From Aliarcobacter sp. (GTDB taxonomy: Bacteria > Campylobacterota > Campylobacteria > Campylobacterales > Arcobacteraceae), in assembly GCA_028689025.1 (NCBI GenBank), contig JAQTXA010000008.1, positions 1-64,000 of the forward strand: 64,000 bases of DNA, given 5' to 3'. A model generated the notes under the pieces. That model was given only the letters and a program-made list of their open reading frames with translations. It ran no database searches and was not told where the DNA came from. Of the stretch, positions 46,691-63,896 are shown piece by piece; the stretch's first letter is position 1; every line of letters starts with the position of its first letter. A program made the position numbers and the translations under genes.

Positions 46691-47377
46691 TTAAACAATA
46701 CGATAACCAAGACCTTTTATATTTACAAAGATATCTGTAGAGAGTTTTTTTCTGAGTCTTAGAATTATATTTTTTATTGAGTTCATGTTTATTTCTTTAT
46801 AATTTAAAGCTTCACTAATTTGTTCATAGGTAAATACATTTTTTTTATTTTTAGTAGCTAATTGTAAGAGTTGTTGCTCTTTTAATGTTAAATCAATTCT
46901 TTTATCATCTATAATAATACAATGGTTTAAAATATCATATTGAATATTAGTAGTTATTTCAACTATAGTGGTTCTATCTTTGATATATTTCTTTCCAAAT
47001 TTTATTAATACATCTTGTAAATCAGCAAAACTATAAGGTTTACTTAAAAAATCAAAAGCTTGAATTTGAATAACTTTCCTAAAATCATTTATATTTGTGC
47101 TTGAAGAGATAAAAATAAAATCAATGTTTTTATCTAATTCTCTAACTTCTTGGGCAAACTCTGTTCCAGAGATTTTAGGAAGAAAAATATCACAGATAAT
47201 TAAATCAAAAGTATTTTTTTTAAATATATTTAAAGCTTCAAATCCATCTGTTGCTGTTGTAATATTTTTAAAATACATTGAGAGAATAGTAATAGTTTGC
47301 TCCATTTGAAAAGAGTCATTTTCTACATATAAAACTTTAAAATGTTTCAAATTTTGCATTATTTCAACATCATTCAT
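46691..47377 (-). CDS. OmpR-family response regulator
   Basis: A 228-residue two-domain regulator: REC (about 12-125) with Asp in IICDIFLPKISG and Lys in LSKPYS, and a C-terminal winged-helix Trans_reg_C domain (about 140-228, LTLKEQQLLQLATKNKKNVFTYEQI, ILRLRKKL, IKGLGYRI). It starts in the stop of the kinase gene (ATGA). Together with the broken kinase and another regulator it forms a three-gene unit divergent from the giant adhesin operon, which is its most obvious potential target. Confidence 0.92.
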   Translation of the reverse strand: MNDVEIMQNLKHFKVLYVENDSFQMEQTITILSMYFKNITTATDGFEALNIFKKNTFDLIICDIFLPKISGTEFAQEVRELDKNIDFIFISSSTNINDFRKVIQIQAFDFLSKPYSFADLQDVLIKFGKKYIKDRTTIVEITTNIQYDILNHCIIIDDKRIDLTLKEQQLLQLATKNKKNVFTYEQISEALNYKEINMNSIKNIILRLRKKLSTDIFVNIKGLGYRIV

Positions 47378-49164
47378 TTGTTAATTCCATCCATTTTATA
47401 TATTTTAATTAAAGCACCACTTGGAATATTCATAATTACAAAATTCCATCCATCTTTTGATACTATATCTTTACACATTTTCAAGCCTAAACCATTTAAA
47501 CTATTATCTTTAAACTTATTTAAAATATCTTCATTAAAGCCTCTACAATTATCTTCAATTATTATTGAACTTTCTCTTATTGTAATATTTATAATTGGAT
47601 TTAAAATATTCTCTTTGATTGCTTGATTAATGCAATTATTGATTAAATTAATCCAAACTTGCATCCATTGATTTCTAATAGAAACTACAGCTATATCATT
47701 TTTTATATTGTAATTTATAATTAGATTATGATTTTTTATTTTTGTGTTAATTATACTTACTGATGATTTTACAGACTCTAAAATATCAAATTCAATACGA
47801 TTGTCAGATGGCTTATAATAATCTAAAAAGTTTTGCCTAGTTTGAGACATGAAATCTAAACTTTTTTCAATTTCATTTGAAGATTTTTCTAAATAGTTAT
47901 TTGTAATCTCTTGTTTTAGTTGTAGTTTTGCTATGGTTGTAAGATTAATATAACTAATTTTTGTCAATGAATCTCTCCATTGATGGGAAATGTTTGCTAT
48001 TAGTTTTCCTATTTCTGCCTCTTTTTCTTTTTGAAATAATAGTTCTGATTGAACAAGATTTTTTTCAAGCTCTTTTTTTACCTCTTTTCTTAAAAGATAA
48101 TTCCAAAGTAATATTAAAGTCATAACAACTAATAAACCTATAAAAAACCAAAAACCAATACTAAAATAGTTAACGTTATTAATTTCTATAGAAACATGCT
48201 TATTAACAATTTCATCAATCTCTTTTTTTTTAATTGTTACAATAGCTCTATTTAATATATCTTTTAATACTTCTTCTTTCAATACTCCAATTCTCAGATA
48301 ATTAGAATATTCTAAAGGTCTTCCTACCATTTTTAAATTAAATAATCCATCTTTTTTTATAGTATAAGCAGCAACAATCAATGACCTTAAAGTTAAATCA
48401 GCTTTTTTACTTTCTACTAAATGAAAAGCTTCATTTTCACTATCCACAGGAATAAATATTAAATTTGGAAAATCCTTAGAAAATCTTTCATACATTGCAG
48501 TTCCTTTAGGAAGTGCAATGGAAGCTTTAATTTTAGATAAATCTTCAATCATAGGTATTTCAGCTCTTGCAACAAGTACATTTGGATCTTCAAAAATAGG
48601 TTCTGTAAATGTAAGCCATTTTTCTCGTTGGGGTGTTTTATTTAAAAAACTTAAAATATCACACTTTTTATTTTTTGAATATTCTAAAGTCTCTTCCCAA
48701 CCTTTTGTTTTTACAAGGGTAATTTCTAAATTTAATTTTTTAGCAATAAGTTTTATTATATCAGCTGCAATTCCTTCGTGTTCACCATTTTTATTTATAA
48801 TTTCAAAAGGTTCCCAATCTGGATCAACGCACATAGTAATCTCTTTTTTATTTTTGAGGTACTCTTTTTGTGAATCATTAAGTTCTATGATATTTCGTTT
48901 TGATTCTACTGTTCTTTGTATGAGTAGGCTATTGATTTTTAGTAAATCTTCTTTTGATATGGAATTTATAGCTTTATTAAGTATTGATATTAAAATAGGA
49001 TAATCATTTCTTACAATACTATAAATTTTAAATTCATAATCTTCAATAGTTTCTATTTTGATATTTGAAAATTCTTTACTTTTTTTCATATAATCAACAA
49101 CAATAATATTTTCAATCATAGCATCAGCTTTTTTTGAATTTACTAGATTTAGAGCCTCTTCCAC
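47374..49164 (-). CDS. 3' fragment of the frameshifted kinase (second SBP_bac_3 domain, TM, HisKA, HATPase)
   Basis: A 596-residue open frame from a GTG at 49164. It begins in the middle of the first binding domain, so the GTG is not a natural start and the product would lack a signal peptide. It carries the second SBP_bac_3 domain (CVDPDWEPFEIINKNGEHEGIAADI), TM (about 340-358), ISHQWRDSL with the phospho-accepting His, and EDNCRGF...LNGLGLKM. The kinase core looks intact apart from a loosely conserved F-box. Confidence 0.6.
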   Translation of the reverse strand: MEEALNLVNSKKADAMIENIIVVDYMKKSKEFSNIKIETIEDYEFKIYSIVRNDYPILISILNKAINSISKEDLLKINSLLIQRTVESKRNIIELNDSQKEYLKNKKEITMCVDPDWEPFEIINKNGEHEGIAADIIKLIAKKLNLEITLVKTKGWEETLEYSKNKKCDILSFLNKTPQREKWLTFTEPIFEDPNVLVARAEIPMIEDLSKIKASIALPKGTAMYERFSKDFPNLIFIPVDSENEAFHLVESKKADLTLRSLIVAAYTIKKDGLFNLKMVGRPLEYSNYLRIGVLKEEVLKDILNRAIVTIKKKEIDEIVNKHVSIEINNVNYFSIGFWFFIGLLVVMTLILLWNYLLRKEVKKELEKNLVQSELLFQKEKEAEIGKLIANISHQWRDSLTKISYINLTTIAKLQLKQEITNNYLEKSSNEIEKSLDFMSQTRQNFLDYYKPSDNRIEFDILESVKSSVSIINTKIKNHNLIINYNIKNDIAVVSIRNQWMQVWINLINNCINQAIKENILNPIINITIRESSIIIEDNCRGFNEDILNKFKDNSLNGLGLKMCKDIVSKDGWNFVIMNIPSGALIKIYKMDGINK

Positions 49165-49178
49165 ACCATTTGTAATAA

Positions 49179-49679
49179 TTAACTCTTTAATTTTTCTTTT
49201 ATATATTCATAAGCTGTGATACCTCTTGCTACAGCAATAGTGAGTTTTGAAGAGTTTTCTTTCAAGTTATAAATTGGCTTATCATCATTTGAAGCAATTA
49301 CTAAATTAACTTGCATAAAAGGATCAGAAAAAATAGCATATTTTTCCCTATCAGAAGTTTTCCCACTTCCATCAATCATATCAATTTTTTTATTTTCTAA
49401 GGCATTTAAGACTTTTTCAAAGTTTATTCCATCACCTATTTTTTTAAACTCAAATTTTAATCCAGTTTTTTCTTCAATAAGTTTGTAGTACTCTTTGAAA
49501 ATACCTTGATAACTATTAGCTTCAACTTTTGAAAAAGGTTCCCAAGTAACATCACTAAATGAAATAGTAGGATGACTTTTAATAAACTCTTTTTCTTCCT
49601 GAGTAAAATCAATAGATGCACTAAAAGCACTATTGCAATATAAAATTAATAAAATAAAATAGATAGTAAGCTGTTTCAT
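49179..49679 (-). CDS. 5' fragment of the frameshifted kinase (signal peptide plus part of first SBP_bac_3 domain)
   Basis: A 166-residue open frame with signal peptide (1-20) and the first two thirds of a solute-binding domain (DVTWEPFSKVEANSYQGI, MIDGSGKTSDREKYAIFSDPF). It ends at a TAA six codons after the A-run where the frame is lost. On its own it would be a soluble, truncated periplasmic protein and is unlikely to signal. Confidence 0.6.
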   Translation of the reverse strand: MKQLTIYFILLILYCNSAFSASIDFTQEEKEFIKSHPTISFSDVTWEPFSKVEANSYQGIFKEYYKLIEEKTGLKFEFKKIGDGINFEKVLNALENKKIDMIDGSGKTSDREKYAIFSDPFMQVNLVIASNDDKPIYNLKENSSKLTIAVARGITAYEYIKEKLKS

Positions 49680-50356
49680 TAAACAATCATCTTATAGCCA
49701 ATATCTGGAATAGTGTGTAAAAAACTTTTTCCAAATCTTTTTCTAATTCTCATAATAAAATTGTTTAAAGCACTATCACTCATTGGTTCATTTTCATAAA
49801 TAACATTTGCAATCATATCTTTTGTAATAATTTTTGTTCTATTTTCACATAATAATTCAAAAAAAAGTATCTCTTTTTTATTTAATTCAAATATTTCATC
49901 ATTTTTAGCAATATTTTTTAGATTTTTATTATAAACAAAATCATCTTTTAGTATTACATTTACAATATTTTGAGAAATTAATTTCTTAGAACACTCTTGA
50001 AAAACATCCACAAGTGATTTGAAATTTACTGGTTTTACTAAATATCCAGTAAGATTTAAAGTCATGGCTCTAAATAATAGATTTTCATCTTTATAACCAT
50101 TTAATACAACAATAGGTATTTTTTGGTTTGTTTCTCTTATTTTATATATAAAATCCAAACCATTTTCATTTTTGAGATGAATATCGGATACAACAATATC
50201 AATAGCCTCTTCATTTAATATTTTATTTGCACTATTTATATCTTTTGCAATAAAAGTCTTTTTAACAAACATATTAAATAAAGAGATTATATTTTCAATA
50301 AAATCATCACTATCTTCTAAAAGTAATAGATTTTTATTTGATAAATTTTCTATCAT
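49679..50356 (-). CDS. OmpR-family response regulator
   Basis: A 225-residue regulator with REC (Asp in IVVSDIHLKNENGLDF, Lys in LVKPVN) and a winged-helix DNA-binding domain (ELNKKEILFFELLCENRTKIIT, MRIRKRFG, IPDIGYKMI). An in-frame start at 50410 would add 18 residues, but the ATG at 50356 follows TTAGGAAAATT and is preferred. Its stop codon shares a base with the kinase start. Second regulator of the same cassette; two regulators with one kinase is uncommon. Confidence 0.9.
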   Translation of the reverse strand: MIENLSNKNLLLLEDSDDFIENIISLFNMFVKKTFIAKDINSANKILNEEAIDIVVSDIHLKNENGLDFIYKIRETNQKIPIVVLNGYKDENLLFRAMTLNLTGYLVKPVNFKSLVDVFQECSKKLISQNIVNVILKDDFVYNKNLKNIAKNDEIFELNKKEILFFELLCENRTKIITKDMIANVIYENEPMSDSALNNFIMRIRKRFGKSFLHTIPDIGYKMIV

Positions 50357-50484
50357 AATTTTCCTAATTGAATAATTACTGACATTATACAAATAAATAA
50401 TATCAAACATATCGTAAGTTGGTCACAAAAAAGTCTCAATTAATAAAAATAAGCCTAAATTCAAAAACCTAAAACATGGGCTAG

Positions 50485-50769: not shown

Positions 50770-52221
50770 ATGTTAAAAAATGTTTCTAAAATTGTAGCTA
50801 TTTCTGTTGTTGCATCTTTTCTAATAACTGGTTGTGCTGTAACTCCTCAACCTTTTTTGGAAAACGAAGTTAAAGAACAAACTCAAAAAGATATGACTCT
50901 TTTAAATGAAGTAGTAGTTCCTATTACAAAACCTATTTCTTTAGATGAAGCAATTGAAAGAGGGACTAATCATAATCTACAAAAAAGAGTAAAAGTTCTT
51001 GAAACTGCATTGTCGGAGAAACAATTAGATTTAGTTTATTATGATATGTTACCAAATTTAACAGCAGCAGCTGGATATTCAGAGAGAAATAATTATGCAG
51101 CAAGTGCTAGCACTTCTTTTACTAATGGAAATCCGCAATCTTTAGGAGCTAATCCTCAATATTCAGTTTCGCAAGATAAAGAAAGAACAACAGCTGATAT
51201 TGGGTTTAGTTGGAATATTCTAGATTTTGGTTTATCATATGTTAGAGCGCAACAACAAGCAGATAAATTTTTAATAGCAAAAGAAAAAGAGAAAAAAGTT
51301 GAACAAAATCTTAGTCAAGAAATAAGAAGAGCATATTATCAAGCAGTTTCTTCACAAGATTTATTAAAAAGAATTCAACCTATGATGATTGAAGTAAATA
51401 AAGCTTTAGGTGATTCAAAACAAGTACAAAATCAAAGAGTTGCAAAATCTCCAATGGAAGCTTTATCTTATCAAAGGGAATTATTAGACATTTTAAGATC
51501 ATTACATACTCTTGAAAGCAGTTTGATTTCTGCAAAAATAGAACTTGCTGAATTAATGGGATTAAAACCGGGAATTGAATTTGAATTAGCTGATAAAGTT
51601 GAAAAAGATTATCAAATACCAGAGTTTAATATGAATATTGATGAAATGGAAAAATTAGCTTTAGAAAATAGACCAGAATTAGCAGAAGGTAGATATCAAG
51701 TAAGAATTTCTGAAAAAGAGTTAACGGCTGCAAAATTAAAAATGTTACCAGGAATTAATTTGAATACTTCATTATCTTATGAAAATAGTGATTATTTATT
51801 AAATAATGATTGGTATTCTTATGGTGCAAATGTTTCTTGGAATCTATTAAATGTATTTAAAGCTAACGAATATAATAAAATTGCAAAAACTCAAATAGAA
51901 GTTGCAAAAGAACAACAATTAGCATTATCAATGGCAGTATTATCACAAGTGCATTTATCAATTGTTAAATTTAACCAAGCTAAAAAAGAGTATTTCTTAG
52001 CAAAAGATTATTTAACTGTAGCTGATGATATTTACAACTTAATACAAGTTCAAAATGACTTAAATGTTAATGGTAGATTAATTTTAATCAAAGAAAAATT
52101 AAATGATATTCTAGCAACTTTAAGATATTCATCATCGTATGCAAATGTACAAAATAGTTATGGAAGAATTTTTGCTTCTATGGGAATTGATGATAAAAAA
52201 GATGTAATACAAGCTAAATAA
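50770..52221 (+). CDS. TolC-family outer membrane channel lipoprotein
   Basis: A 483-residue outer membrane efflux protein. The signal peptide ends in a lipobox LITGC with Cys22 as lipidation site, as in CusC/OprM-type channels. Two OEP repeats with long coiled-coil helices (about 60-270 and 280-470) follow: SLDEAIERGTNHNLQKRVKV, then DIGFSWNILDFGLSYVRAQQQA and its second-repeat match VSWNLLNVFKANEYNKIAKTQ. First gene of a five-gene operon with membrane-fusion proteins and a giant adhesin, so it is most likely the outer membrane pore for adhesin export. Confidence 0.92.
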   Translation: MLKNVSKIVAISVVASFLITGCAVTPQPFLENEVKEQTQKDMTLLNEVVVPITKPISLDEAIERGTNHNLQKRVKVLETALSEKQLDLVYYDMLPNLTAAAGYSERNNYAASASTSFTNGNPQSLGANPQYSVSQDKERTTADIGFSWNILDFGLSYVRAQQQADKFLIAKEKEKKVEQNLSQEIRRAYYQAVSSQDLLKRIQPMMIEVNKALGDSKQVQNQRVAKSPMEALSYQRELLDILRSLHTLESSLISAKIELAELMGLKPGIEFELADKVEKDYQIPEFNMNIDEMEKLALENRPELAEGRYQVRISEKELTAAKLKMLPGINLNTSLSYENSDYLLNNDWYSYGANVSWNLLNVFKANEYNKIAKTQIEVAKEQQLALSMAVLSQVHLSIVKFNQAKKEYFLAKDYLTVADDIYNLIQVQNDLNVNGRLILIKEKLNDILATLRYSSSYANVQNSYGRIFASMGIDDKKDVIQAK

Positions 52222-52232
52222 AAGGTTCTTTA

Positions 52233-52949
52233 ATGAAAAAATTTCTAAGTTTTATTTTGTTGGCATCTTATTTATATGCTGAAGATTTTTCGGCAAGAGC
52301 AGTTATTATTTCACTTGATAGAACAATTTTATCAAGTGAAATAGCTGGTGAGATAATTGAACTTTCTAAATATGAGGGAGATTCTTTTAAAAAAGGAGAT
52401 TCTCTAATCAAAATTGATTGTGCTGTTTATAGTGCGCAAAGAAGAAAAATCGAAGTTGAAAAAGAGATTTCAAGACTTGAACATGAGAAAAACAAAAAAT
52501 TAGATACTTATGGTTCTATTGGTACATTCGAAATACAAATTTCGCAAGAAAATTATAACAAGCAAAAAGCTGAGAGTGATATTGCATCTATAAATGTATC
52601 AAGATGTAATATTCAAGCTCCTTTTGATGGAAGAATTGCTTCAAAAAAAGTATCAAAATACCAAAGTGTTAAACCACAAGATGAACTTTTAGAAATAGTT
52701 AGTTTAGATAATTTAGAAGCTAGAGTTGTAGTACCTTCTTCTTGGCTTGTTTGGTTAAAAAAAGGTATGGATTTTGATTTGAATATTGATGAAACAAAAG
52801 CAACTATAAAAGCTCAAGTTGTTCAAATAGATTCAATTGTTGACCCAACAAGTCAATCTATATCTTTAAGAGCTAAGCTTATAAAACCTTATGACAACAT
52901 AATACCAGGTATGAGTGCAACTGCAAACTTTTACCAAAAAAATAACTAA
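52233..52949 (+). CDS. small periplasmic membrane-fusion (HlyD/RND adaptor-like) protein
   Basis: A 238-residue adaptor. Signal peptide at 1-16 (MKKFLSFILLASYLYA); split biotinyl-lipoyl domain (IAGEIIELSKYEGDSFKKGDSLIKID and later IQAPFDGRIASKKV) around a short alpha-hairpin (about 65-105), then a beta-barrel domain ending IIPGMSATANF. Much shorter than drug-efflux adaptors. Placed 11 bases after the TolC-like gene and 15 before the adhesin. It probably docks onto the TolC-like channel. One of three HlyD-like modules in the operon. Confidence 0.88.
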   Translation: MKKFLSFILLASYLYAEDFSARAVIISLDRTILSSEIAGEIIELSKYEGDSFKKGDSLIKIDCAVYSAQRRKIEVEKEISRLEHEKNKKLDTYGSIGTFEIQISQENYNKQKAESDIASINVSRCNIQAPFDGRIASKKVSKYQSVKPQDELLEIVSLDNLEARVVVPSSWLVWLKKGMDFDLNIDETKATIKAQVVQIDSIVDPTSQSISLRAKLIKPYDNIIPGMSATANFYQKNN

Positions 52950-52964
52950 TCAAGGATTTGAGTT

Positions 52965-55900
52965 ATGAAAAAAAGAAATATGAAAAAACCAATAATAAGC
53001 GCCCTTGAACAAAGAATTCTTTTTGATGGTGCAGCAGTTACTACTGCGGTTGATGTTCTTGATAATAGTAGTTTTACTACAATAACTAAAGACTCAACTG
53101 CTACAAATAATGATGCTACAAATAATAGTGCGGAAAATATTGTACATGAAGCGCAAGCAGTTCAAACATTTGAAAAAGATAGAAGAGAAGTTGCTTTTGT
53201 GGATTCAACTGTTAAAGATTATCAAACTTTAGTTGATGGAATAGGAAAAGATGTAGAAGTATATCTTGTTAGTTCACTTGATGAAATAAACTCAATACTT
53301 CAAAACCAAAAAAATATTAATGCAATACATATCTTATCACATGGAAGTACAGGAGAAATAACTGTAGGAAATGATATTTTAAATAGTGATACATTAGATG
53401 AAAATACTCTATTACTTGAAACTATAAAAAACTCTTTAACAGAAAATGGAGATATTTTACTTTATGGATGTAATGTAGCAAGTGATGGAAATGGAGAAGG
53501 ATTTATAAACTCAATAGCCCAAATCACACAAGCTGATGTTGCTGCTTCTGATGATTTAACTGGTTCTTCTACACTAGGTGGAGATTGGATTTTAGAAAAG
53601 AGTATAGGTGTTATTGATACAAATGATTTAAATATTGCTAGCTATGATGGTACTTTAGCAGCTACAACATTTAATTTTTCAAGTGGAACAATAGACATAA
53701 ATTATACAAACCATGTTAGACAAAATATAGGTGGAGTTGTTGTTGATGCAACTATTCTAGATTCAGGAACAAGTCCTACTGTATCAGGCGGTATTTTTAC
53801 AGATAGTTCAAATCAGGGTAAAACGATGCAGTTTAACTTTAGTACACCATCTGTTGCTTCAAGTATTAAAGTTGGATATTATAGTAATACGGGAATTGTA
53901 GGTGATTTTTCAGTTAAAGGTTATGATGGTGCCACACTATTATATTCTTATACAATTTCAAGCCCTAATGTGAGTACCACTTATACTTTAGATTTGGCAA
54001 CTTTAGGATGGAGTTCTAATTTAACAAAAATTGAAGTTAATAATACAGGGGCAGGAAAAGTTACTTTTTTTGCTGATGATATTGTTATTGCACCATCAAA
54101 TCCAGCTCCAACAGATATTCAACTATCTTCGACTTTAGCACCACAAGATTTAACAGGAGCTAGAATAGCTAATATTAGAGCATATGATAAAAGTGGATTA
54201 GTAAGTTCACTAGGAAACTATCCTAGTTATGCTTATACCTATGCAACAGATACAGTTACTTTTTCAGAAGTAACAGATAGTAGTAATTTATTTAATGTTA
54301 GTTCTTCTGGAATATTATCACTAGATAGTGGTAAATCATTAGCAAATGGGGCAACTGCAAATATTACTATTAGAGCTACAGATAGTGCAAATAATTATTT
54401 TGATAAAACCTTTACAATAACAGGTGGCGCATATAATAGTATAACTGTTACTCCAAGTACAACAGGTACTTTTACATATAGTGGCACGACAATTGGAAAT
54501 ACATATACAAATACTAATTGGACTAATAATGATGATAGTTTTTATATATTAGCACCAACTGCTTCAGGATCTGATTTAAATGACCCGGAATGGGGAGATA
54601 CGTTAAGTAGTGCAATCACATATGATCCTTTAAATAATGCACAAAATGTTGAATATGTTGCAGGTGCTAGTAATGGAACAGATACTTTTGTTTTGGGAAA
54701 TGAATATTATGTTGTAACAGTTGGTTCTGTTGTAGATACAACTCCCCCAACATTTGATGTGACACCATCTGCTTCGAATGTAAGCTCAACTACTTTAGAT
54801 TTAAGTGCAAGTTTAAATGAAGCAGGAACTATCTATTATGTAGTTGTAGCAAATGGAGCAACTGCTCCAAGTGTAGCTCAAGTATTAGCAGGACAAGACT
54901 CAAGTGGTGCATCCGCACTAAAATCAGGAAATGGTAGCGTTGCAACTACTCCTTTTACAGGAACTTACAACATCTCAGGACTGAGTTCAAATACAGCTTA
55001 TGATATTTATGTAGTTGGAAAAGATAGTGCTGGAACACCAAATGTAATGACTACAGCTACAAAAGTTGATGTTACGACAGCTGGTTTATCTGCAACATTT
55101 GATTTTGAATCAAATATGACAGGAGTTGGTACAAAAACAGTAACTCAGACTGTTTCAGGTGTTACCTTGTCAATTACTTCGACAACGATATCAATTGTTG
55201 ATTCAAGTACAACTTCAGGACAAGATATTCAAGGTACAACTACATTAAGTACGGATTATGGTACAGCTTTAGAAACACAGTTAGATTTTTCAGTTACTGG
55301 TTATACATTCAATTTAGATTCACTAATTATTTTTAATGTAAATACTAATGAAACCTTTACATTAACTGCAAATGGACAAACTGCTAGCTTATTAATAACA
55401 TCAGGTGCTACTCCTACATGGAATATTTCTGGTTCTGCTGATGCATCAAAATTTCAAAATATTTCAAGTTTTACTTTGACAGCAACTAATCCTTATGCAA
55501 TTGATTTTGATAGTATAATTCTTACAAATATTACTCCCGCAGGTCCTACTGCACCAAGTGCTCCCAATATGACAGCTGGAAGTGATAGTGGAAGTAGTTC
55601 TACAGATAATAGTACAAATGATAATACACCAACTTTTACAGGAACTGCAGATGCAAATGCAACTGTCAATTTATATGACACAGATGGAACAACAGTTCTA
55701 GGAACAACAACTGCTAATGGTTCTGGTAATTGGTCAATTACATCATCAACTCTATCAGACGGTGCTCATACAATTACAGCAAAACAAACCGTATCAGGTC
55801 AAGAATCATCTGCTTCTTCAAGTTTATCTGTAACTATAGATACATCTACTCCTAGTGCTTCTGCAACAACTGCAACATTAAAAAATAGCACAAATGCAAC

Positions 55901-58900
55901 GGTACAAAGTAGTGAAACTGGAACAGCATATATAATTAAAGATACAGTTATTGTTTCTAATATATCAGACATAACAAGTGCATCTGATGATAACTTTAAT
56001 AGTATTACAATATCAAGTGCAAACACTAATACAAATATGGCACTTTCAGGTTTAGTTGATGGAACTTATAAAGTTTATTCAACTGATACAGCTGGAAATT
56101 TATCATCTGCATCTACAAATACAATCACTATAGACACAACTGCCCCAACTTCACTAGCGGTTAGTACAAATAGTATCTCATCTTCAATCACAGGTACAAA
56201 TTCAAATATTGCAACAATATCAGCAACAGATACACACACTATAACATATGCACTTGCAAGTGGAAATGGAACAAATGATGCAAATAATTCAAGTTTTAAT
56301 ATTTCAGGAACAGATCTTAGAACAAGTTCAGCTCTAAGCGCTGGAACTTATAATATTTATTTAAGTGCAACTGATTCTGCTGGAAATGTAACATATCAAG
56401 CACTTACCATCACAGTAAATAGTGGACCAACAGTAAGTACAGCAACAAGAACATATACAGACACCTCTGCAAATGACACATTCACTAATACAACAGGAAC
56501 AATAAGCGCAACAGCTTCAAGTGGTTCAATTACTGGATATGGTATTAATACAGGAACAACTGGTGGGACTGATAATATAGGTGGGACTGTGTATGATGTG
56601 TCAAAAGCAGGAACTTATGGAACATTATATGTAAAATCAAGTGATGGAAGTTATGTATATGTTCCAACAAGCAATAGTGCAATAAATGCAACTTCAACAA
56701 CTGTTACCGATGCCTTTACAATAGAGGCAACTGATAGTGCTGGAACAAAAGGAAATACTTTAACTATTACGATTAATGGTGTAAATGATACTCCGATATT
56801 AACAGCACCAAGTGCAGGAAGTTATGCAGATACAAGTGCGTATGATACATTTAGTAATACAACAGGAATTTTAAGTGCTAGTGATAGAGATACTGGAACA
56901 ACATTAACTTATGGAATAAGCACCGGAACAACCGGTGGAAGTGATAATTTTGGTGGAACTATTTATGATATTTCAAAAGCAGGAAGTTATGGAACATTAT
57001 ATGTAAAATCAAGTGATGGAAGTTATGTTTATGTTCCAAATGCAAGTGCAATAAATGCACTTACAAATAATACAACAGATAATTTTACAGTAACAACATC
57101 AGATGTTGGATTATCTGATTCTCAAACATTTACAGTAAATATTACAGGTGTAAATGATACACCAACAGCAGTAAATAAAACAATCACAATAAATGAAGAT
57201 ACGCCAACACTATTAAGTGCAAATGACTTTGGATTTAGTGATGCAGATAGTGCAAGCACATTATCAAGTATAAAAATAACAACTTTAGAAACAGTGGGAA
57301 CATTAGAATATTATAATGGAACAGTATGGACAGATGTAACATTAAATCAAGTAATAACAAAAGTAGATATAGATGCAAATAAATTAAGATTTAGTCCCTC
57401 TTTAAATGGGAATGGAGATAATTATTCAACATTCCAATTTACAGTAAATGATGGAACAATAGATTCTGTAAGTGCCAATACAATAACGTATAATGTAACA
57501 GCAGTAAATGATGCACCAATAGTTGCCAATGCAATAGTAGATCAAAGTGCTAGTGTATCTAATGCTTTTAGTTTCCAATTTGCTACAAATAGTTTTACAG
57601 ATGTAGATACTAGTGATACATTGAGCTACACTACTCAACTTGTAGATGGAAGTGGGAATTTAGTAAATAGTGGAACACTTCCAACATGGTTGAGTTTTAA
57701 CTCAGGAACAAGAACATTTAGTGGTACTCCTGCAATTGGTGATGCAGGAACTATTTATCTAAAAGTGATAGCAACTGATAATGGCACAGGCAATTTAAAT
57801 GTTTCTGATATATTTTCAATCACAGTAAATAGTGGACCAACAGTAAGTACAGCAACAGGAACATATACAGACACCTCTGCAAACGACACATTCACTAATA
57901 CAACAGGAACAATAAGCGCAACAGCTTCAAGTGGTTCAATTACTGGATATGGTATTAATACAGGAATAACTGGTGGGACTGATAATATAGGTGGGACAGT
58001 TTATGATGTGTCAAAAGCAGGAACTTATGGAACATTATATGTAAAATCAAGTGACGGAAGTTATGTATATGTTCCAACAAGCAATAGTGCGATAAATGCA
58101 ACTTCAACAACTGTTACAGATGCCTTTACAATAGAGGCAACTGATAGTGCTGGAACAAAAGGAAATACTTTAACTATTACGATTAATGGTGTAAATGATA
58201 CTCCAACTGTAGCAAATATAATTGGAAATCAAACTGCAACACAAGATAGTGTATATAATTTTCAATTTTCATCAAATGTATTTTCAGATGTAGATTCAGG
58301 AGATACTCAAACTTATACAGCCCAATTAGTTGATAGTAATGGAAATTTAGTTAATAGTGGAACATTACCTACTTGGTTAACATTTACATCAGGAACAAGA
58401 ACTTTTAGTGGAACACCTACAAACTCAGATGTCGGAATAATTTATATAAAAGTTATAGTAACAGATGGATCAAGTGCAACAATAAGTGATACATTTGCAT
58501 TAACAGTAAATAATGTAAATGATGCTCCAACAGGAAGTGTAATAATAAATGGAATACTAAAACAAGGTGAAACATTAACAGCAAGTAATAATATAGCTGA
58601 TATAGATGGATTGGGAACAATTACTTACCAATGGTATGCTAATGATGTTCTAATAACTGGAGCAACAAATTCAACATATCTATTAACTCAAAATGAAGTA
58701 GATAAAGTAATAACTGTAAAAGCGAATTATACAGATGCACAAAGTACAAATGAAACAGTAACAAGTAGTGCAACAACTTCAATTGTAAATGTAAATGATG
58801 CACCAACTGTATCATCAGAAAATATAGATGTTGTCCTTCCTTTTGGAAATAATTATGTAAAAGATATATCTACATTATTTAGTGATATAGATAATTCAAA

Positions 58901-59810
58901 CACTTTTACTTTTGAAGCAATAAATTTACCAGCAGGATTATCAATAAACTCTCTTACTGGAGTAATTTCAGGTAAACCTACACAATCAGGTGATTTTATT
59001 ATTACTATAAAAGGAATAGACTCAGGAACACCAGCTATGAGCATTAGTAGAACATATAATATGTTAGTTCTACCAGGCGCACAAACGAGAGTAGATACAC
59101 TGCCTAACATACCAATATTAAATAATACTAATCCAATAGGAACTAATACAAATATATCTTTAAATAGTTTTAAAGACAATACAAATTTAGGGGTATTAAA
59201 CTATAGTGTAAATGGAGACAATGTTGATAATACAGGTGAAGGTTTCATAAAAACAAATGAAACAAACAATAGAAATACGCAAAATAATACTCCTCAAAAT
59301 AATACAGACACACCAAATCAGCCTAATTATCAAACGGATAATGGAAAAGGAATGATACAATCAAATGTAAATTTAAATGTATCAACAAATGGGCAAGTAT
59401 CATTTAATCAATCTAATCAAGACTCTTTTTCAGTTGTTGGAATAACAATTGAAGATATTAAAGTTGAAAATGGTAGATTAGAAATTAAAATACTAGATAC
59501 AAATCTTTCTAATAATTTCATTATTACTAAAACCGATGGAACACCGCTACCTGCTGGACTATCTTTTGATCCAAAAACAGGAAGTATTTCAGGTTCAATT
59601 CCTGAAAATTTAGAGAAATTAGAAATAAGTATTAAATCTGTAAATACAGATGGAACAACTAAAATTCTAAATCTAAAACTTGATTTAAAACAATTAAAAA
59701 ATAAAAATCAAGCTGATACACAAAGTTTTATAGGCTTACAAGAGCAAGTAGCATTTGAAAATCAAAAACTAGATGGTTACGGAACTTATCTTACAAAATT
59801 ATTCGCGTAA
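52965..59810 (+). CDS. giant repeat adhesin with LEPR-XLL-like N-terminus and DUF4347 domain
   Basis: A 2281-residue surface protein. No ordinary signal peptide; instead [12 protein letters not shown] (13-24) matches the LEPR-XLL N-terminal motif of very large exported proteins. A DUF4347 domain spans about 75-225, with LSHG (His126) and YGCN (Cys169). The rest is a chain of Ig/cadherin-like repeats: a Big-type unit near 870-970, VCBS-like units joined by GVNDTP or VNDAPT linkers, and several He_PIG/CADG units (LPTWLSF...RTFSGTP). It lacks glycine-rich RTX calcium nonapeptides. The C-terminus ends in a conserved-looking helical tail. The composition is Thr/Ser/Asn/Gly-rich. Predicted role: adhesion, aggregation or biofilm matrix binding. 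Confidence 0.9.
56411..56794 (+). repeat. 384-bp internal adhesin repeat, copy 1
   Basis: Nearly identical to 57821-58204 at a fixed offset of 1410 bases, with only about eight visible base differences, mostly synonymous. Encodes one VCBS-like unit (about residues 1150-1277), from [10 protein letters not shown] to GVNDTP. Other repeats in the gene are far more diverged. Confidence 0.9.
57821..58204 (+). repeat. 384-bp internal adhesin repeat, copy 2
   Basis: Second copy of the unit at 56411-56794, encoding about residues 1620-1747. Protein-level differences include Arg to Gly and Thr to Ile; the rest are silent. Flanking repeats differ, so the copy was probably made by recent duplication or gene conversion. 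Confidence 0.9.
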
Positions 59811-59829: not shown

Positions 59830-61176
59830 TTGGAAACAAATATCTCAAAACTTCTACAGTTGGAACACAACTGTAGAAATTGTGAAAGTTTAAAAGAGCT
59901 TTATTATCAAATAGTTAATGAAACAAGAAGTTTAGTTCCATATAGCCAAGGTGTTTTATTAACTACTGATGTAACTGGTAAATATAAAGTGGTATCAATA
60001 TCAGATATAGCGGCTGTTGATTCAACTTCTCCTTTTGTTCAATGGATTGAAAATATAATAATAGATTTAAATAACAGTGAAAAAGCAAAAAACATTTTTA
60101 TTGTTGATACAAAAAATGATTTAAAAGAGATTAATCTTAAATCAATGCATGAATATTCACCTTCAAATCTTGTATATCTTCCTTTAAAAAGTATGAAAGA
60201 TTATATGGAGATCAATTATATTTTACTCCTATTCAAAGAGGAAGAATGGTTAGAAAATGATGTTTTAATATTAAAACATCTTTCATCATCTTTATCATAT
60301 TTTTTATTTGCAATGAGAAGTTGTGGAATATTTCAAACATTAAAAAAGTTATCGTTTAAAAACAAATATTTAAAATATGTTCTTATTTTCATAATAGCTT
60401 TAATGTTTTTACCAGTAAGGCTCTCAGTTTTAGCACCTTTAGAAGTTGAAGCAAAAAATCCTTATGTTGTAACTTCTCCTTTAAATGCAGTTATAGAAGA
60501 AGTGAAAATTTTTCCAAATGAAAAAATAGAAAAAAATCAATTAATAGTAAAATTTGATGATGTGGATTTTAATAATAATTATTTAGTTGCAAAAAGAACT
60601 TTAGATGTGGCAAATGCTCAATTACATACAGTTCAACAAGGAAGTTTTTTTGATGCAACACAAAAAAGCCAAATTTCTCAATTAGAAAGTCAAGTTAAAC
60701 TAAAAGAGGCTGAATTAAATTTTGCTTTAGATCAATTAAATAAAACAAAAATAAATGCAATAGAAGATGGGATTGCAATTATTAATAATCCAAATGATTG
60801 GAAAGGAAAACCAGTATCTACAGGTGAGAGAATTTTTCTAATAGCAAAACCTGAAAATATAGAATTAAAAATAATGTTACCAGTTAGTGAAGCTATATTT
60901 TTAGAAGAAAATGCACAAATAAAAGCCTTTTTTGATAATGATCCTACAAACTCTTGGCTTGGTAAAATTAAATATATCTCATATAAACCTGAATTAACAG
61001 AACAAAATATTTTATCATATAAAATAATTGCAAATTTTGATGATATTAAAGAGAATGGTTATATTCCATCTATTGGATTAAGAGGAACTGCAAAAATCTA
61101 TTCAAAAAAAGTAACTCTATTTTTCTATTTATTTAGAAAACCAATAACTGCCACAAGACAATGGATAGGTTGGTAA
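59830..61176 (+). CDS. GAF-TM-HlyD protein (cytoplasmic sensor fused to periplasmic adaptor)
   Basis: A 448-residue bitopic protein. Residues about 15-165 are cytoplasmic and GAF-like (LVPYSQGVLLTTDVTGKYKVVSISD, LVYLPLKS, ILLLFKEEEWLENDVLILKHL). One TM at about 182-200. The periplasmic part (about 205-440) is an HlyD-type adaptor: VTSPLNAVIEEVKIFPNEKIEKNQLIVKFD, a coiled coil, and LRGTAKIY. It may sense a cytoplasmic state and gate or anchor the export complex. TTG start at 59830 behind AAAGGA, 19 bases after the adhesin stop. Shares its stop base with the next start (TAATG). Confidence 0.87.
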   Translation: METNISKLLQLEHNCRNCESLKELYYQIVNETRSLVPYSQGVLLTTDVTGKYKVVSISDIAAVDSTSPFVQWIENIIIDLNNSEKAKNIFIVDTKNDLKEINLKSMHEYSPSNLVYLPLKSMKDYMEINYILLLFKEEEWLENDVLILKHLSSSLSYFLFAMRSCGIFQTLKKLSFKNKYLKYVLIFIIALMFLPVRLSVLAPLEVEAKNPYVVTSPLNAVIEEVKIFPNEKIEKNQLIVKFDDVDFNNNYLVAKRTLDVANAQLHTVQQGSFFDATQKSQISQLESQVKLKEAELNFALDQLNKTKINAIEDGIAIINNPNDWKGKPVSTGERIFLIAKPENIELKIMLPVSEAIFLEENAQIKAFFDNDPTNSWLGKIKYISYKPELTEQNILSYKIIANFDDIKENGYIPSIGLRGTAKIYSKKVTLFFYLFRKPITATRQWIGW

Positions 61177-63290
61177 TGCTTGAACAAAAAATATTATTAC
61201 CAAAAATAAGAAATGATTTAAAACTTTTAGAAACATCTGCAAGTGAAGATGGCTCTAAAAGATGGCTAATATTTGATCCAATTCAAAATAAATATTTTAA
61301 TATAGGAATTGATGCCTTTGAACTAATTTCGAAATGGCAAAATAATATAGAAATTGAAGAGTTTATTCAAATACTAAAAGAAAAAGATTATGATATTGAC
61401 AAAGAATCTTTACAAACTTTTATAGAGTTCTTAAAAAATAATAATCTAATTTTATGTGAAGAAATTCAAGATATACAAAGAATAAAAAATGTTCATAAAC
61501 AATCAAAACAAAACATATTTAAATGGCTAATTCATAACTATTTATTTATAAGATTTCCTCTTGTAAAACCTGATAAATGGCTTGAAGAAAATAAAAATAG
61601 AATAAATTTTTTATACTCTAAACTTTGGCAAAATATTATATTTTTTCTTGGGTTTATAGGTATTATTTTTGTGTTAAGAGATTGGGAAAATTTTACTTCA
61701 ACTTTTATGTATCTGTTTACAAAAGAGGGATTTTTTTACTATTTTTTATCTTTAGTTTTTGTGAAGAGTTTCCATGAATTAGGACATGCTTTTGCTGCTA
61801 AAAGACTAGGTTGTAAAGTTCCAACAATGGGAGTAGCTCTTTTAGTTCTATTCCCTGTTTTATACACAGATACCACAGATGCCTGGAAATTAAAATCAAA
61901 ATACCAAAGATTGCAAATAGTAGTAGCTGGAATGAAAGTTGAACTATATATAGCTTTAGTTGCTACATTTTTATGGTCATTTGCACCTGTTGGAATTTTT
62001 AAAAGTATATTATTTATTCTTGCAACAACAAGTTGGATTAGTTCAATTTTAATAAATATTAGCCCTTTTCTACGATTTGATGGATATTATGCTCTTTCAG
62101 ATATAACTGATAGTAAAAATTTACAACCAAGATCTTTTGCAATAGCTAGATGGTTTATACGGAAAAATATTTTGGGATTAGAAGAAGAGATACCTGAAGT
62201 TTTATCTAATAAAAAACAAAAATTCTTCATTGCTTACGCTATTTCAACTTGGATTTATAGATTCTTTTTATTTTTAGGAATAGCAATATTAGTATATTAT
62301 TATGCTTTTAAAGTTTTAGGAATAATTTTATTTTTGGTTGAAATAATTTGGTTTATATTTTTGCCTGTCTATAAGGAATTAAAAGTGTGGTGGATGAAAA
62401 GAAATAGTTTAAAATTTAACAAAGAAAATAAAATCTCTTTACTTATATTTTTAGTTTTTATATTACTTATTTTTCTACCTTGGAATTCAAATATAAAAAT
62501 GCCAGCCATAATTGAATCAGAAAATTATTTTGAATACTATACTCCTGAAGATGCATATATTGAAAGTATCTTTTTTACAAATGGGGAAGAAGTAAAAAGT
62601 GGACAACTTTTACTAAAACTAAAATCTCCACAATTGGAGTATAAAATTTCTCAAGTAAAAGAAGAAATTGAACTTTCACAATTAGAATTAAATAGACAAG
62701 CAGGATTCAAAGAGAATCTAGATAAAAGATTTATTTTAGAAGAGTCATTATTGAAAAAAACAAATGAACTTGAGGGACTAAAAAAAGTAACTGAAAAGTT
62801 TGAAGTAAAAGCATCTTTTAATGGAAAAATATATCTTTTTGATAGTTATAAAGAGAAACAATGGGTAAATAAAAAAGAACCTATTTTTGTTTTATATGAT
62901 AATACAAACTTTAAAATAACAGGTTTTTGTAATGAAAATGATTTAAATTTATTAAAAGAAAATGCAAAAAGTAAATTCATTTTTAATTCAGGAGATTTAA
63001 GTGATATATCTTCAAATATAACGACAATTTCAAGGGTTTCTGTTCCTTATTTAGAATATTCGGAGTTGTCTTCTGATTTTGGAGGAACAATTCCAACTAG
63101 ACAAGATTCAAACAAAAGAGTAAAAACAGAACAAGCATATTATAAAATCACTATGAATTTAAAAGATTATAAGTTAGATTTAAAAAGTAGAAAAGTTGGA
63201 GTTTTAGTATCTAAAGGTGAATCTACAACTATTATTTCAAAAATTATAAAGAAAAGTATTTCAGTTATTATAAGAGAGAGTGGATTTTAA
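61176..63290 (+). CDS. PqqD-like / M50 site-2 metalloprotease / HlyD adaptor fusion
   Basis: A 704-residue polytopic protein. N-terminal ~95 residues resemble PqqD-type peptide-binding winged helix (WLIFDPIQNKYFNIGIDAFELI). A membrane region (about 150-410) carries the intramembrane zinc protease motif SFHELGHAFAAKRLG (HELGH at 200-204) and the distal FLRFDGYYALSD aspartate. The C-terminal ~270 residues after a further TM are a HlyD-like periplasmic arm (AYIESIFFTNGEEVKSGQLLLKL, coiled coil, ASFNGKIYLF). ATG at 61176 follows AGG and couples to the previous stop; an ATG at 61161 would add 5 residues. Probably the inner-membrane centre of the adhesin export system; processing of the adhesin is inferred. 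Confidence 0.88.
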   Translation: MLEQKILLPKIRNDLKLLETSASEDGSKRWLIFDPIQNKYFNIGIDAFELISKWQNNIEIEEFIQILKEKDYDIDKESLQTFIEFLKNNNLILCEEIQDIQRIKNVHKQSKQNIFKWLIHNYLFIRFPLVKPDKWLEENKNRINFLYSKLWQNIIFFLGFIGIIFVLRDWENFTSTFMYLFTKEGFFYYFLSLVFVKSFHELGHAFAAKRLGCKVPTMGVALLVLFPVLYTDTTDAWKLKSKYQRLQIVVAGMKVELYIALVATFLWSFAPVGIFKSILFILATTSWISSILINISPFLRFDGYYALSDITDSKNLQPRSFAIARWFIRKNILGLEEEIPEVLSNKKQKFFIAYAISTWIYRFFLFLGIAILVYYYAFKVLGIILFLVEIIWFIFLPVYKELKVWWMKRNSLKFNKENKISLLIFLVFILLIFLPWNSNIKMPAIIESENYFEYYTPEDAYIESIFFTNGEEVKSGQLLLKLKSPQLEYKISQVKEEIELSQLELNRQAGFKENLDKRFILEESLLKKTNELEGLKKVTEKFEVKASFNGKIYLFDSYKEKQWVNKKEPIFVLYDNTNFKITGFCNENDLNLLKENAKSKFIFNSGDLSDISSNITTISRVSVPYLEYSELSSDFGGTIPTRQDSNKRVKTEQAYYKITMNLKDYKLDLKSRKVGVLVSKGESTTIISKIIKKSISVIIRESGF

Positions 63291-63452: not shown

Positions 63453-63896
63453 TTATTTATAAAAACCTGAGCCTATGAGAATATTATTTCCAATGTTTTT
63501 TATAAAAGAACTTTTATCTGCATTTTGTTTAGTTTCAGGATTTGACCATTTATAATCTATCCATCCTTCACCCTTTGTTTTTGCAATATTAATAAATTCT
63601 TGAAATATCATCGTTCCATCAGGAGATTTAATATTATAAAGATTTTTCCCAACAATTGTTGGATTTCCTCCATGAGCTAATGTTATTCCTTCATAATTAA
63701 TTGCAAATATATATAATGACCCTTTTACAAAATCACCTTTTTTATCATTAAATGATGACAAACACACATCAATACCCTTTTCTTTACATAGTTTCACACC
63801 ATCTTCTATCAAATTCGTAACATCCTCTTTTGTTGTTGCAAAAGCATATATTGAATTGATTAATAGAAATATACCTATTTTCAATAAAATTTTCAT
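63453..63896 (-). CDS. secreted single-Cache-domain protein (sCache_2-like)
   Basis: A 147-residue protein with a signal peptide (1-20) followed by one Cache-like sensory domain: SLYIFAINYEGITLAHGGNPTIVGKNLYNIKSPDG and GEGWIDYKWSNPET are typical of sCache_2 domains of chemoreceptors and kinases. No TM, kinase or methyl-accepting domain follows, so it is a free periplasmic binding domain. ATG start after AAAGGTACTTTATT. Not clearly part of the adhesin operon (convergent). Confidence 0.85.
   Translation of the reverse strand: MKILLKIGIFLLINSIYAFATTKEDVTNLIEDGVKLCKEKGIDVCLSSFNDKKGDFVKGSLYIFAINYEGITLAHGGNPTIVGKNLYNIKSPDGTMIFQEFINIAKTKGEGWIDYKWSNPETKQNADKSSFIKNIGNNILIGSGFYK

Follow-up and report, generated by a model that had tools for sequence, protein, structure and literature searches.

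The window, the whole 64,000-nt stretch of DNA analysed, carries a TolC-linked module in which a fusion protein with a PqqD-like domain, an M50 protease core and an HlyD arm is predicted to read, and probably to process, the N-terminal leader of a giant surface protein that would be moved by a SecA-type motor. The probability of this reading is put at about 0.52. It was reached by comparison of sequences, from the gene set, the joint inheritance of the fusion gene with its cargo, the intact catalytic residues, the match between leader type and protease clade, and an operon free of an ABC gene. On this basis we infer physical binding of the leader, its cleavage, a Sec route and a hand-over to TolC. 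The PqqD-like domain would hold the adhesin leader in the cytoplasm, and the SecA-type motor, the housekeeping SecA in this organism and a paralogue in most modules of a sister clade, would drive the chain across the inner membrane. The M50 site would cut the leader at the membrane, and three HlyD-type proteins would guide the chain to TolC.

Organization of the operon

Five genes form a run that ends with the M50-HlyD gene, in the order TolC, small adaptor, adhesin, second HlyD protein and M50-HlyD protein. The open reading frames and Pfam matches of the window locus include no ABC gene in the operon. The features of the operon are as follows:

50770..52221, plus strand: TolC-family outer membrane channel, 483 aa (Pfam OEP, 128 bits)
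52233..52949, plus strand: small periplasmic adaptor of the RND type, 238 aa (domain search)
52965..59810, plus strand: cargo adhesin, 2281 aa, with Ig/cadherin-like repeats (Pfam)
53004..53039, plus strand: leader core, 12 residues, adhesin residues 14-25 (conservation, predicted disorder)
53190..53645, plus strand: DUF4347 of the adhesin, caspase/CHAT-like fold (Pfam, 160.7 bits; fold match)
59830..61176, plus strand: second membrane HlyD protein, 448 aa (Pfam)
61161..63290, plus strand: PqqD-like/M50/HlyD fusion protein, 709 aa (open reading frame; Pfam; structure model)

The second HlyD protein has a GAF-like N-terminus, recognized by eye, and GAF scored above its cut-off in a sister homologue. 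Upstream of TolC, the minus strand (47377-50410) encodes a response regulator, a solute-binding protein and a histidine kinase with a solute-binding domain; similar regulators flank the module in loci L026 and L142. Downstream of the operon, the minus strand (63453-63896) encodes a small protein that has a sensor domain of the Cache type.

Domains and fold of the fusion protein

The longest open reading frame of the M50-HlyD gene begins at an ATG at position 61161. This start overlaps the preceding gene, and 61176, the start given in the sequence-only reading, is an internal ATG in the same frame, so the true start is ambiguous. The protein is composed of the following parts:

61188..61451, plus strand: PqqD-like N-terminal domain (RiPP recognition element type), residues ~10-97 (model and profile comparisons)
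61572..62396, plus strand: M50 membrane core, residues 138-412 (VIA-align)
61773..61787, plus strand: HELGH zinc-protease motif, residues 205-209 (sequence)
62076..62090, plus strand: FDGYY, residues 306-310, with the presumed third zinc ligand D307 (sequence; D307 invariant in 48 relatives)
62475..63242, plus strand: HlyD/MacA-type periplasmic adaptor arm, residues 439-694 (VIA-align with MacA; HlyD_3)

In Pfam searches the window protein scored above the cut-offs of both Peptidase_M50 (PF02163; 34.3 bits, cut-off 27.2) and HlyD_3 (PF13437; 27.3 bits, cut-off 22.2). The AlphaFold model has a mean pLDDT of 87. By VIA-align, the M50 core of the model matched an RseP orthologue with Z 10.6 and SpoIVFB with Z 9.6, and the adaptor arm matched MacA with Z 16.1. 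A PDB fold search with the whole model gave a match list filled by the HlyD arm, in which the N-terminal domain was barely probed. The sequence-only reading had described a single protein that joins a PqqD-like domain to an intact site-2 protease motif (HELGH plus FDGYY) and a long periplasmic HlyD arm; the fusion and the arm are both confirmed by these matches. All 48 relatives compared keep the catalytic H, E, H and D unchanged, and HExxH and D are also retained in a second M50 clade of ~24% identity. This conservation across both clades favours the predicted catalysis by the M50 core.

The N-terminal domain is described here as PqqD-like and not as PqqD, because direct searches are weak and the homology is bridged by the sister clade. 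PF05402 gave no match to the window protein and matched 4 of 40 relatives weakly (best E 0.015); one sister protein passed the cut-off (24.1 against 23.4). When the N-terminal domain of the window's clade was compared directly with true PqqD by hhalign, P was 27.5 and E 6.5e-4. The same domain matched that of the sister clade with P 95.8 (E 8e-9), and the sister-clade domain matched true PqqD with P 95.5 (E 1.5e-8); all of these values are from single comparisons, for which the unrelated pair DUF3467/SecB gave E 0.46. The domain is modelled as three strands followed by three helices. The earlier assignment is therefore retained for the bridge through the sister clade and for the modelled fold, and it is not borne out by the direct search or by PF05402. 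PqqD-type domains bind leader peptides in RiPP systems, e.g. PadeB1 (PMC5067487).

Distribution and joint inheritance

The fusion, described in the sequence-only reading as a chimera, is no isolated case and belongs to a large family, with at least 328 relatives in one genome scan. The best 80 of these are mostly from Campylobacterota and from Gamma-, Beta- and Alphaproteobacteria. HELGH or HEFGH is present in all relatives of the scan listed, a figure biased by one scan pattern that itself contained a HELGH-type motif; in an unbiased family search, all full-length matches whose frame was read likewise carry HELGH or HEFGH. The second HlyD protein adjoins the M50-HlyD gene in 79 of the 80 related loci, and TolC (47 loci) and the small adaptor (61 loci) are within reach in many, the counts being affected by the many loci that end at contig ends. 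The same gene set was found in Campylobacterota, Pseudomonas, Enterobacterales, Burkholderiales and Alphaproteobacteria. Among 5426 complete E. coli genomes, 22 have the M50 gene (≥80% of its length), mostly on plasmids.

Several of the related loci have features of their own. The E. coli IncF plasmid NZ_CP081687.1 (L120/L122) carries the full module and a cargo of 4460 residues with the leader ALESRQLFDGAAL. On Rhizobium and Mesorhizobium plasmids (L169, L171), cargoes of more than 10,000 residues with the leader LEPRLLLSADF adjoin the module. The module of a Colwellia MAG (L029) is 57% identical to the Campylobacterota form, which points to an inter-phylum transfer or to an error in binning. 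In gammaproteobacterial modules another gene, for a sulfotransferase or for a protein with a phage tail-collar domain, separates the M50 gene from the adhesin:

L056:12501-13328: tail-collar or sulfotransferase open reading frame
L079:12350-13273: tail-collar or sulfotransferase open reading frame
L061:12143-13084: tail-collar or sulfotransferase open reading frame

In the genome family of the window (101 genomes), DUF4347 adhesins occur in 16 genomes, and all 16 have a full-length M50-HlyD protein, which is found in 18 genomes altogether. Fisher's test of this co-occurrence gave 1e-16, a value that overstates independence because the genomes of the family are related. Both genomes that have M50-HlyD but no DUF4347 are drafts, and their M50 gene is on a short contig or close to where its contig ends. 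The sister M50 clade serves cargoes whose leaders follow the pattern [LMI]E[PS]R-x-[LM][LM]-[SN]-A-D, and the M50 tree divides deeply along the same line as the leader types (28 FDG against 10 SAD, support 1.0). Locus L024 (genome G023) has a DUF4347 cargo like those of the first clade, but its M50 protein belongs to the sister clade and the cargo carries a SAD-type leader. Genome G002 holds both modules, each with the matching leader type. The match between leader and clade supports contact between the two partners and stops short of proof, since common descent of the gene sets would give the same pattern. A functional link of the fusion protein to the LEPR-type start of the adhesin, as suggested earlier, is supported by the co-occurrence, the leader-clade match and the conserved, exposed, non-Sec leader. 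The further suggestion that recognition is coupled to hand-over appears right in kind and is partly supported.

Leader, DUF4347 and possible leader release

The cargoes begin with a near-invariant leader, LE-x-R-x-L-F-D-G-A, which is conserved across phyla. Across 15 cargoes its L, E, R, F and D never change, and a variable linker follows. Of the open reading frames in the related loci, 43 of the 163 that are large or cut by an edge contain the motif, and none of 2004 smaller ones does. The leader of the window adhesin has Q where LEPR has P, and the LEPR-XLL model NF012209 scored below threshold on this protein (11.3 bits, cut-off 17, E 0.22). Residues 1-70 of the adhesin are predicted to be disordered. 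The leader shows no Sec-like hydrophobic core: its 12-residue hydropathy is 1.63, with a D inside, whereas the TolC signal reaches 2.89. Disorder and the lack of a Sec-like core are as expected for a peptide that is to be held.

DUF4347 lies directly behind the leader, and its fold best matches the structure of the T6SS effector Tce1 (Z 13.7), with CHAT at Z 9.7. The candidate catalytic residues are a conserved pair:

53340, plus strand: DUF4347 His126
53469, plus strand: DUF4347 Cys169

Cys169 is invariant in 15 cargoes and His126 is nearly so. DUF4347 is also present in a T6SS effector (PMC8262886), and in the adhesin it may act as an autoprotease. The leader could be released by the M50 site, by DUF4347 or by neither. 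It is somewhat unlikely that the M50-HlyD protein confines itself to reading the leader, with the cut made by DUF4347, or with no cut and the leader kept as an export or retention anchor. The position of DUF4347, its CHAT/caspase-like fold and its invariant cysteine are consistent with such a division of labour, but a pure scaffold would not need the HExxH and D that are kept in both M50 clades. In addition, several sister-clade cargoes have no evident DUF4347 near their start (by eye), and one cargo (L076) has no His126. Cutting by the M50 site is the preferred reading.

Proposed export motor

A Sec-type motor, housekeeping in the window's clade and dedicated in the sister clade, would be the simplest reading of the export step. 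In most sister-clade modules a SecA paralogue of ~650 residues is encoded directly behind the M50-HlyD gene. It matches SecA_DEAD with E down to 1e-103 and is also identified as SecA by phmmer. It is labelled SecA in two records and is often labelled prepilin peptidase or DEAD helicase. Examples, among others, are:

L022:15557-17509: SecA paralogue directly behind M50-HlyD
L148:16130-18115: SecA paralogue directly behind M50-HlyD
L152:16141-18099: SecA paralogue directly behind M50-HlyD

The window genome and the genomes with the window-type module only have one SecA, and genomes G002, G028 and G425, all with sister modules, have two. Modules of the window's own clade are without the paralogue, and it appears to be optional in the sister clade, as it is missing from two modules there (L024, L151). 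The sequence-only reading had overlooked both this paralogue of the sister modules and the lack of an ABC motor in the operon. The product of a small gene of the sister modules, DUF3467, was considered as a SecB-like chaperone and rejected, as the profiles did not match (E 0.46).

It is unlikely that the M50-HlyD protein serves as an accessory to an ordinary type I secretion system. A LapB-type ABC exporter encoded elsewhere would then move the adhesin, and the module would supply special adaptors and TolC. The TolC and HlyD proteins fit this arrangement, and two Pseudomonas loci of the 80 have a LapB-like ABC cluster just upstream of the module. All module-bearing Campylobacterota genomes searched also carry a LapB-type exporter, so an ABC exporter could act in trans. 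However, in the loci read, the module itself contains no ABC gene, and 78 of the 80 related loci have no exporter-sized ABC gene on the same strand. Kosakonia arachidis and Stutzerimonas stutzeri 24a13, cultivated organisms with draft genomes and the full module, gave no LapB/HlyB match at E 1e-150 and general ABC-level scores only in a PrtD search. No RTX repeats were found by Pfam in the window cargo.

It is quite doubtful that the C-terminus acts as a type I-like export signal, with the N-terminal leader serving for timing or anchoring. The pattern concerned, [GST]LxxQ[LIV], is represented in the window adhesin by one site:

about 59730-59755, plus strand: C-terminal motif GLQEQV of the adhesin

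Among 29 cargoes, 23 carry the pattern 25-50 residues before their C-terminus, whereas 3% of internal windows do, a contrast weakened by the definition of the pattern on the same cargo sequences after inspection. The remaining 6 of the 29 cargoes are without it, and none was seen in SAD-type cargoes. Least probable by far is that the fusion acts as a site-2 protease on an unrelated substrate and is tied to the adhesin by the operon only; M50 family members such as RseP and SpoIVFB often cut regulators, but the HlyD fusion, the strict joint inheritance with the cargo and the leader-clade match argue against such a role.

The reading with a SecA-type motor and leader processing by the M50-HlyD protein can be extended, tentatively and at less than even odds, to a distinct Gram-negative secretion class. 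Such a class would combine a SecA-type motor, a leader-reading and leader-cutting M50-HlyD protein, a GAF-HlyD partner and TolC, and would export cargoes of 1,500 to more than 10,000 residues free of an ABC transporter.

Implications

If the proposed route holds, some of the largest surface proteins of bacteria leave the cell by a non-type I route with a defined, testable leader and a processing protease. The LEPR-XLL motif would gain a function, and RiPP-style leader reading would be joined to protein secretion. The route would also explain large orphan gene sets of Pseudomonas, rhizobia, Aliarcobacter and some E. coli plasmids, which are currently annotated only as efflux adaptors. A TolC module that lacks its own ABC exporter, whose cargo starts with a leader and whose sister forms are linked to SecA, matters beyond a single chimera.

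Comparison with known systems

A PqqD-like domain joined to an M50 core without HlyD is already known from RiPP maturation. The daptide HExxH protease model NF041824 aligns to residues 39-397 of the window protein with 137.8 bits (cut-off 300) and matches 48 of 48 relatives, and the YydH/LiaK model matches 41 of 48 (E 0.01), with scores below the curated cut-offs where checked. These matches mark the PqqD-M50 half as kin to RiPP proteases. The YydH/EpeP/LiaK (NF058609) and daptide (NF041824) proteases have the N-terminal domain and the M50 core in common with the window protein. Their substrates are short RiPP peptides and their models stop after the membrane core, whereas the window protein continues into an HlyD arm and its cargo has thousands of residues. 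For EpeP, an M50 protease of the epipeptide type, both cleavage and export of its peptide have been proposed (PMC10885120). No short RiPP precursor with a modifying enzyme is found among the neighbours of the fusion gene, which encode TolC, HlyD proteins and the adhesin instead.

Type I adhesin secretion (LapBCE, SiiCDF) likewise uses TolC, HlyD-type adaptors and a giant repeat adhesin; the window module differs by its N-terminal leader, by having no ABC exporter and by a cargo in which no RTX was found. LEPR-XLL proteins (NF012209) are also giant proteins with an N-terminal LEPR-like motif, and sister-clade cargoes are annotated as such. LEPR proteins occur in Planctomycetes. The literature searched offers no mechanism for LEPR-XLL proteins, and searches of the open-licence literature for LEPR-XLL, for M50 with HlyD and PqqD, and for accessory SecA with TolC found no published study of the system. 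Accessory SecA2 systems resemble the sister modules in having a second SecA with a dedicated neighbouring cargo. The sister SecA differs in being shorter (~650 aa), Gram-negative and encoded beside M50-HlyD and TolC, and it is absent from the window module. The PCAT/C39 bacteriocin exporters are ABC transporters with a cysteine protease, in contrast to an M50 protease with HlyD, and in them one inner-membrane protein joins leader recognition, cleavage and export, as is proposed for the fusion protein of the window.
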